DNA from: Candidatus Thermoplasmatota archaeon
Lineage (GTDB): Archaea > Thermoplasmatota > E2 > UBA202 > DSCA01
Length of the DNA stretch: 42,365 nucleotides
Direction: 5' to 3'
Assembly (NCBI GenBank): GCA_034660695.1
Contig: JAYEJS010000038.1
Span: forward strand, 1 to 42,365
Shown: positions 6,715 to 8,517 of the stretch, piece after piece
Numbering within the stretch: position 1 is the first letter of the stretch
Layout: the number at the start of each line of letters is the position of its first letter
Made by a program: the position numbers and the translations under genes
The notes under the pieces: model-generated
What the model saw: the letters and a program-made list of their open reading frames with translations, nothing else
The model's database searches: none
Told to the model about the DNA's origin: nothing

Positions 6715-8517
6715 ATGGCAAAGAAAGACACAATGATTGCTCTTACCAAGAAGGGTATATCCAAAGAGATTGCAAAAAAGCTGGCACAACATTTTACCAT
6801 ATCCTCATTAAAAAAAGCTGGTTTGGATGATATATGCAAATTGAGATTTAAGAAGAAAGACGCACAGGATATACTTAACAAAGTTGGTATAATGGCAAAG
6901 ACAGCAAAAGCCAAGAAAGGAAGAAAAGAGGTCATAAACAAGTTTTCGAAGATAAAGGGTATAGGCCCTTCAAAGGCAGAAGCTCTTTATGAGGCCGGTT
7001 TTAGAAGCATGCTTGAACTGAAATTGCAGCCTATAGAAACAATAGCAAAAGTAAAGGGTGTGGGCAAAAAATATGCAACTATAATAAAAAATTATTTAAC
7101 TCCTTCGAGGGAAGAAGCATTAAAAGAATTTTCGAAGATAAAGGGTATAGGCCCTTCAAAGGCAGAAAAATTATTAGATGCCGGATACCGAAGTAAATTA
7201 GATATGAAGCTTGCATCAGAAAGAGAATTGAAAAGTATTATAGGAAGTGCCGCCTCAAAAATAAAAAAGGATTTGGGCTCTATCGATGTACGGGGCATAT
7301 TGGCGAAGGCGGAGAATGTTCCTCCCCCGACAATAGAGGAGCCAGAAAAAAATGAGACATTGAGAAAAGAAATACATACCATATTGGAATCTAGTGGAGA
7401 ATTTTTGCCCCGTTCTATAACAGATGGGATTATAGAGAAAGTTGTTGACAAAGACCTGCCGAAAAAAAAGTTAGAATATCTGGTGAATAAAGTCGTTGAT
7501 GATTATACCAGTGTATTGATGGATCCCTTAGAGGCTTGCGGAATAGTGGCCGCTCAATCCATCGGCGAGCCGGGAACTCAGATGACAATGCGTACATTCC
7601 ACTATGCAGGAGTGGCAGAAATAAACGTTACACTTGGGCTGCCCCGCCTGATAGAAATTGTCGATGCCAGAAAAAAACCCTCGACACCAATGATGACGGT
7701 ATATCTGGAAGGGGCATGCAAAATTAATCGAGATATGGCCAAGAAAATAGCAAATAAAATAGAAATCACCCGCCTTATCAATGTCGCAGAGGTGAACACA
7801 GATCTGGGAAATATGATGATCGTCGTAAAGCCAAATAAAAAAGCCATTGAAAGAAAGAACATAACGATTGATGATATCGAGAAGAGATTGAAGTCTTTAC
7901 GAAGGACAAAGATAAGACAGACAGGGGATGTGATTGAAGTGGCTCCAACCGGGGAGGAGACGTACCGTGAATTACAGAGAATAAACGAAGAAATCAAAAA
8001 TATAAAGATAAAGGGAATTGACGGAATAAAAAGGGCCATAATAAGGAAGGAAAAAGGTGAGTATATAATCTATACGGAAGGTAGCAACTTTGAGAAAGTA
8101 CTGGCTATAGAGGGCGTAGATAAAACCAGAACGACCACGAACGACATCTATGCCATATATACTGTTCTGGGAGTTGAGGCGGCGAGAAATGCGATTATAC
8201 ACGAGGCATATAATACGCTTCAGGAGCAAGGGTTGAACGTTGATATACGCCACATAATGCTTGTTGCGGATACGATGACAGCAGATGGAACAATTCGCTC
8301 CATAGGCAGGCAGGGCATCAGCGGAGAAAAAAGTTCGGTCATTGCAAGGGCTGCTTTCGAAATTACGGTAAACCATTTACTGAGGGCTGCAAAGAGGGGA
8401 GAAATAGACGAATTGAGAGGAGTGGCGGAGAATATCATAGTTGGCCAGCCAATAAAATTAGGAACGGGTTCAGTTGAACTTTCTGTTGATGTAAGTAAAA
8501 TGGGTAAAGGTGAGTAA
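6715..8517 (+). CDS. rpoA2: RNA polymerase subunit A'' with an N-terminal helix-hairpin-helix extension
   Basis: A 600-residue protein. The C-terminal ~390 residues are ordinary A'' (the Rpb1 C-terminal third): the trigger-loop region with [16 protein letters not shown] starts near residue 270, followed by the jaw and clamp parts. The N-terminal ~200 residues are extra. They are lysine-rich and hold two near-identical helix-hairpin-helix motifs, [13 protein letters not shown] (residues 77-89 and 139-151), and a third, VKGVGKKYA (about 113-121). Such motifs bind DNA backbone without sequence specificity. The start at 6715 is chosen because GGAGGTG at 6701-6707 sits at ideal distance and rpoA1 ends at 6713. 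Many archaeal A'' proteins are near 390 residues, so the extension is the unusual part. Confidence 0.96.
6943..6981 (+). repeat. 39-bp direct repeat, copy 1, inside rpoA2
   Basis: This segment is identical base for base to 7129-7167, 186 bp (62 codons) downstream. It encodes the first [13 protein letters not shown] helix-hairpin-helix motif. The flanking codons have diverged, which suggests that this stretch was homogenised or duplicated recently. Confidence 0.9.
7129..7167 (+). repeat. 39-bp direct repeat, copy 2, inside rpoA2
   Basis: Identical to 6943-6981 and in the same reading frame; encodes the second [13 protein letters not shown] motif of the RpoA'' extension. Confidence 0.9.

Follow-up and report, generated by a model that had tools for sequence, protein, structure and literature searches.

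The RNA polymerase gene cluster in the window, the whole stretch of 42,365 nucleotides of Candidatus Thermoplasmatota DNA analysed here, encodes an A'' subunit (Rpo1C) that is preceded by three tandem domains of the helix-hairpin-helix (HhH) family, very probably in one polypeptide chain with the catalytic core. Few proteins are as conserved as the subunits of RNA polymerase; the A'' core and HhH domains are each known, and it is their combination that appears new, as far as the literature searched extends. The extension probably has a real role, and we give about even chances to its being a built-in, non-specific nucleic-acid grip of the polymerase.

The A'' gene lies beside the A' gene in a cluster of ordinary archaeal order, rpoH, rpoB, A', A'', with eL30 and NusA downstream (Table 1). 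Its ATG at 6715 follows directly on the A' stop at 6713, and a Shine-Dalgarno sequence like that of the window precedes the same ATG in three relatives (G001–G003), being weaker in a fourth (G005). Across five genomes the frame of the extension contains no in-frame stop, and no internal start with a Shine-Dalgarno-like site common to the relatives was found. From the uninterrupted frame, the Shine-Dalgarno sequence at the long start and the lack of a shared internal start, we conclude that extension and core are very probably a single chain. A separate protein product for the extension, or a start of A'' inside the frame, might be suggested by a TTG with a Shine-Dalgarno-like stretch at residue 231, but this is seen in the window only, and set against the continuous frame and the strong ribosome-binding site kept at the long start within the family it leaves such a product very improbable indeed.

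Table 1. Features of the A'' gene and its cluster in the window, and loci of other additions to A'' in relatives (nucleotide positions are those of the window unless a locus is named).
Feature	Position	Strand	Remarks
rpoH	433-699		named by eye
rpoB, undivided	701-4069		named by eye
A' (Rpo1N), standard, 877 aa	4080..6713	+	aligns with Rpb1 up to residue 876
Cysteine cluster in A', CxxCxxCxxxxC	5790-5825		ferredoxin-like
Shine-Dalgarno sequence, GGGAGGTG	6700..6707	+	7 nt upstream of A'' start
A'' (Rpo1C) with N-terminal extension, 600 aa	6715..8517	+
Domain 1, residues 1-58	6715..6888	+	divergent HHH_5-like; at A'' N-terminus in much of the phylum
Basic linker, residues 59-71	6889..6927	+
Unit 1, residues 72-128, HHH_5	6928..7098	+	two canonical GhG hairpins (6958-6966, 7057-7065)
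39-bp stretch in unit 1	6943..6981	+	identical to 7129-7167 in unit 2
Unit 2, residues 134-187, HHH_5	7114..7275	+	first hairpin canonical (7144-7152), second degenerate
Linker with PPP, residues 188-215	7276..7359	+
A'' core	7360..8514	+	last part of foot, trigger loop, jaw, remainder
eL30	8510-8797
NusA	8798-9220
Domain 1 on A'' of MAG named Methanocellales	L038:4001-4180		E=3e-18
Unrecognised A'' N-terminal domain, ~110-130 residues	L173, L183, L184, L200 (f36); L172, L198 (f32); L178 (f40); L167 (f39); L168 (f37); L179 (f19); L174 (f35); L180 (f13)		two copies in L174
Lysine-rich A'' tails of f4	L026-L028, L030-L032, L141, L145, L148, L150, L151, L189-L191

The A' subunit contains a ferredoxin-like cysteine cluster with weak matches to Fer4; we do not regard it as a peculiarity of this genome, since it occurs in most archaeal A' subunits checked, though not in those of haloarchaea.

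Residue 17 of Thermococcus A'' (4qiw_C) aligns with residue 232 of the window A'', which leaves some 205–215 extra residues, from residue 1 to about 205–215 (6715 to about 7329–7359). What follows is a normal A'', as the sequence-only reading had stated: the equivalog TIGR02389 covers residues 231–591 (model positions 2–366 of 367; 499 bits against a cut-off of 421), the Pfam Rpb1_5 match begins at residue 233, and the A'' subunits of the Pyrococcus, Thermococcus and Sulfolobus structures match from about residue 231 with E values down to 2e-116. These solved archaeal subunits, of 380–397 residues, differ from the window A'' in having no HhH extension.

By sequence family, the HhH character of the extension is clear. 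Pfam HHH_5 (PF14520) matches it three times, at E=4e-20 for the extension alone, which is far beyond chance, and with a score of 72 bits over the three stretches where the Pfam cut-off is 27. Three hairpins have the canonical GhG form, at residues 82–84, 115–117 and 144–146, whereas the hairpin positions of domain 1 and of the second half of unit 2 are degenerate; domain 1 by itself scores 20.5 bits against HHH_5, under the cut-off. The same reading had described an HhH extension of about 200 residues with three such motifs, and both its length and its motif count hold, the motifs being the three canonical hairpins. Intein families are absent among the Pfam and NCBIfam matches of the window A''.

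By sequence the extension comes closest to the HhH families of eL32, RadA, ComEA, Hel308-type helicases and UvrC, which are mostly nucleic-acid proteins. The closest to the units is the N-terminal HhH domain of archaeal eL32 (NF009401, E=1e-16; 1s72_Y, E=1e-6 in the search of PDB sequences), which likewise stands at the N-terminus of a conserved gene-expression protein but is single, belongs to a ribosomal host and is missing from the eL32 of the window's own order. The extension is not itself eL32, as the match is limited to the first 80 positions of NF009401 and the eL32 gene lies on another contig. Identity with Rpo13 is also ruled out, as the extension is in frame with A'', matches HhH families and is not a separate small subunit.

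Structure prediction bears differently on the three domains. AF2 run with 14 A'' rows gives domain 1 as five short helices with pLDDT of 78–93 per ten-residue block, a model consistent with an HhH pair. With the same 14 rows, among which the closest relatives were not included, units 1 and 2 are predicted at low confidence, as they are when their fragment is modelled alone (mean 56), and a fold search from that low-confidence model gave no match. For these two units the assignment of the HhH fold is based on their clear sequence-family matches.

Within the extension, unit 1 appears to be constrained about as strongly as the enzyme core. Over residues 77–130, for which its identities were computed, unit 1 of the window is 81–89% identical to those of the family members (catalytic core 80–84%); the corresponding values are 96% and 93% between G002 and G003, and 65% and 66% between the window and a second family. 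Its dN is 0.02–0.13 within the family, where dS is above 1 or saturated, and over the extension dN is well below dS wherever dS can be estimated. Residues K81, K87, R97 and K119 of unit 1 are invariant in the five sequences. The linkers change fastest, and domain 1 and unit 2 change faster than unit 1. It is this strictness in unit 1 that suggests that the extension does something real. Neutral accretion, in which the A'' N-terminus tolerates additions that persist without function, would account for the great variety of additions in the phylum, which include lysine-rich tails and unrelated domains, and for their losses; the core-like conservation and low dN of unit 1 make it, for the extension as a whole, very unlikely. 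Only in this genome do units 1 and 2 share an identical stretch of 39 bp; in four relatives such identities measure 8–17 bp, and the difference suggests recent gene conversion here.

Nucleic-acid binding by the extension, and any effect that it has, we infer; the domain family makes DNA binding plausible. We envisage that the three HHH_5-type domains hang from the foot region of the enzyme by the proline-containing linker, that duplex DNA would be held by its backbone, close to the polymerase, by unit 1, whose two GhG hairpins are intact, and probably by unit 2, and that this hold might lessen dissociation and so make for higher processivity or salt tolerance, an effect that (HhH)2 arrays have in topoisomerase V and in engineered DNA polymerases. 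Domain 1, the older module, with its degenerate hairpins, may serve for docking, to the polymerase itself or to a partner. The argument for such a grip draws on the strength of the HHH_5 match and the three canonical hairpins, on a unit 1 that is 81–96% identical within the family, at or above the level of the catalytic core, with low dN and invariant basic residues, on the nucleic-acid proteins that predominate among the nearest families, and on the emergence or spread of HhH arrays in a distant second clade as well. It has precedents too. In topoisomerase V, DNA is wrapped by the (HhH)2 domains, which seem to serve as a processivity factor and have also been employed to make other enzymes more processive (PMC9489208); a fusion of DNase I with (HhH)2 domains has higher salt tolerance (PMC4777378).

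Against the grip stand the low-confidence models of units 1 and 2 and the fact that many HhH domains bind protein. The main rival is a docking platform, on which the domains would tie a protein partner, such as a transcription factor, the ribosome or a repair protein, to the polymerase. HhH domains are generally known to mediate protein contacts, domain 1 is widely kept yet has no canonical hairpins, and the very high conservation of unit 1 would suit a specific interface. The canonical GhG hairpins and basic residues retained in unit 1 speak against this; we rate docking as rather unlikely, though likelier than the other rivals.

Charge gives the grip less help than the window alone would suggest. 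Here the extension is 20% lysine and its net charge lies around +23 to +26, the higher value being that over 205 residues, and the description of it as lysine-rich stands for this genome. Lysine richness is a trait of this genome and its nearest kin and is not conserved group-wide: the net charge is −3 in G001 and −1 in G005, two relatives with the same domains, and −36 and −40 in the HhH arrays that family f31 (L160, L166) carries on A''. The core of the f31 subunit is equally acidic, which suggests a salt-in halophile; this family has retained the HhH array and not its positive charge. The near-neutral extensions weaken the argument from charge to DNA binding, and together with the strongly acidic ones they mean that a grip by charge would not be general. 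They are also what a docking platform would allow.

The position of the extension on the enzyme is set by alignment with yeast Rpb1, in which A' ends at residue 876 and the A'' core begins at 1036. It therefore appears to be anchored in the foot region, in the break that separates the halves of the largest subunit; the foot of the Pol II structure we take to extend over residues ~871–1059. Attachment of the arm at the jaw or lower clamp, as the sequence-only reading implied, is not supported, since the alignment places it at the foot. The foot does not lie next to downstream DNA, and this counts against the grip, although the linker of ~28 residues could let the extension reach DNA.

Two further explanations follow from this location. 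The foot is counted, in a simulation study, among the areas at the secondary-channel entry (PMC7565877), and with the insertion mapping to Rpb1 877–1036 the domains might affect backtracked RNA or the way in which TFS and other channel factors gain access. HHH_5 domains occur mostly in duplex-DNA proteins, however, and the length of the linker permits reach elsewhere, so that we think such a channel element improbable. Alternatively, the extension might replace the larger Rpb1 foot and aid the association of A' with A'', or that of Rpo6 and Rpo4/7. Its site is the break between A' and A'', and in yeast the association of Rpb6 and Rpb4/7 is changed by mutations of the foot (PMC10778713). No sequence similarity between the extension and the Rpb1 foot was found, however, and the A'' subunits of families f10, f21 and f28 and of two f2 genomes (G004, G008) manage without any extension; an assembly or stability aid is in our judgement distinctly improbable. 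With the extension attached at the foot, close to the secondary channel, a nucleic-acid grip could be tested on recombinant archaeal polymerase, and the A'' variants that occur across the phylum provide a comparison set.

Topoisomerase V of Methanopyrus, which matches the extension at E=9e-4, is likewise a DNA enzyme with tandem HhH domains, but it carries twelve (HhH)2 domains after the topoisomerase domain and is no polymerase. The C-terminal domain of the bacterial alpha subunit (PF03118) contains HhH motifs, is joined by a flexible linker to a core subunit and touches DNA; it differs in belonging to another subunit and another terminus. The window A'' has no match to PF03118, and the units of other families match it at E=1e-4 to 3e-3, below the cut-off, with one relative's domain 1 at E=0.07. 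Rpo13 of the Sulfolobales is, like the extension, a lineage-specific helical addition to an archaeal RNA polymerase, but is a separate helix-turn-helix subunit docked at Rpo5 and the clamp head (PMC2675907). The lineage-specific insertions of bacterial beta and beta' are also added domains of the large subunits that vary by lineage, although they have other folds and lie within the chain; the paper that describes them mentions, for archaeal Rpo1C in general, an addition at the N-terminus, and not an HhH extension (PMC11515920). Such domains are thus well described for bacteria and not, in the literature searched, for archaeal A''. That literature, which took in little of what is under subscription, contains no description of an HhH extension of A'' and, as the sequence-only reading had supposed, no defined function for one. 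If the array does grip DNA, evolution made on RNA polymerase what engineers fused onto DNA polymerases for processivity and salt tolerance.

A comparison of A'' subunits over the Thermoplasmatota, along the lines that the same reading had proposed, shows how far the extension spreads. The full form is found in all four genomes of the window's own family, f1, and in the sole genome examined of the second family, f3, of the same order. In family f2, also of this order, domain 1 is followed by a lysine-rich stretch in 14 of the 16 genomes with a readable terminus, and the remaining two have an A'' without any extension. Domain 1 is much more widespread: an HMM built only from the window's order matches at or near A'' residue 1 in families f5, f7, f8, f13, f25, f26, f27, f33, f38, f41, f42 and f43, and also the A'' of Thermoplasmata archaeon bin33 (L033), the named row by whose place within the tree we judge the phylum to be Thermoplasmatota. 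Domain 1 profiles of the two halves, when compared, match at E=2e-24. A Poseidoniales-type match is marginal (L058, E=0.03), and domain 1 is absent from the A'' of Methanolobus, Methanothrix, haloarchaea, Archaeoglobus, Methanobrevibacter and other named archaea. Judged from these matches, domain 1 is an old module with which A'' begins in many families of the phylum. Outgroups came from a contig scan with two universal core peptides, which yielded 80 loci, mostly from distant archaea and bacteria, that were used as named outgroups. In one MAG named Methanocellales, A'' also carries domain 1, and this subunit groups with Halobacteria/Methanosarcinia relatives on the A'' tree; transfer, an older origin and a binning error are the alternatives.

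HhH arrays of two or three units, without domain 1, occur on the A'' of families f12, f23, f29 and f31, which on the A'' core tree cluster together, with support, away from the window's order. A single clade for all array-bearing rows is rejected (AU p=0.003), at least three changes being required on the tree, and the pattern of two clades fits independent gain, loss and transfer alike. Scans of viral sequences revealed no relative of the HhH units and thus no support for a viral source. In eL32, a single N-terminal HhH domain is present in f4 and f6 (L201, L207, L208, L209) and not in the window's order (L211–L232). An exchange of HhH domains between eL32 and A'' was considered, the two being seemingly complementary in a few families of the class; frame lengths across the phylum show no clean exchange.

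The additions at this terminus comprise the old HhH-like domain, lysine-rich tails, an unrecognised domain of ~110–130 residues and, in at least two separate clades, HhH arrays; the terminus seems to accept additions and at times to retain them. Tentatively, and with more doubt than confidence, we suggest that the A'' N-terminus of Thermoplasmatota may be a general site of domain exchange and a lineage-specific regulatory tail, in a role like that of the alpha CTD in bacteria or the CTD in eukaryotes, of which a nucleic-acid grip would be one form.

The domain of ~110–130 residues, found in f13, f19, f32, f35, f36, f37, f39 and f40, has no match in Pfam or in a profile search of PDB sequences. 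Its subgroups are linked at E=6e-25 and 1e-15, and between subgroups at 5e-7 or weaker. It is apparently rich in beta strands and, by eye, may resemble domains of the EVE/PUA type. In family f4, finally, most A'' subunits have lysine-rich, low-complexity tails of ~90–160 residues, 27–44% of them lysine, without an HhH domain.
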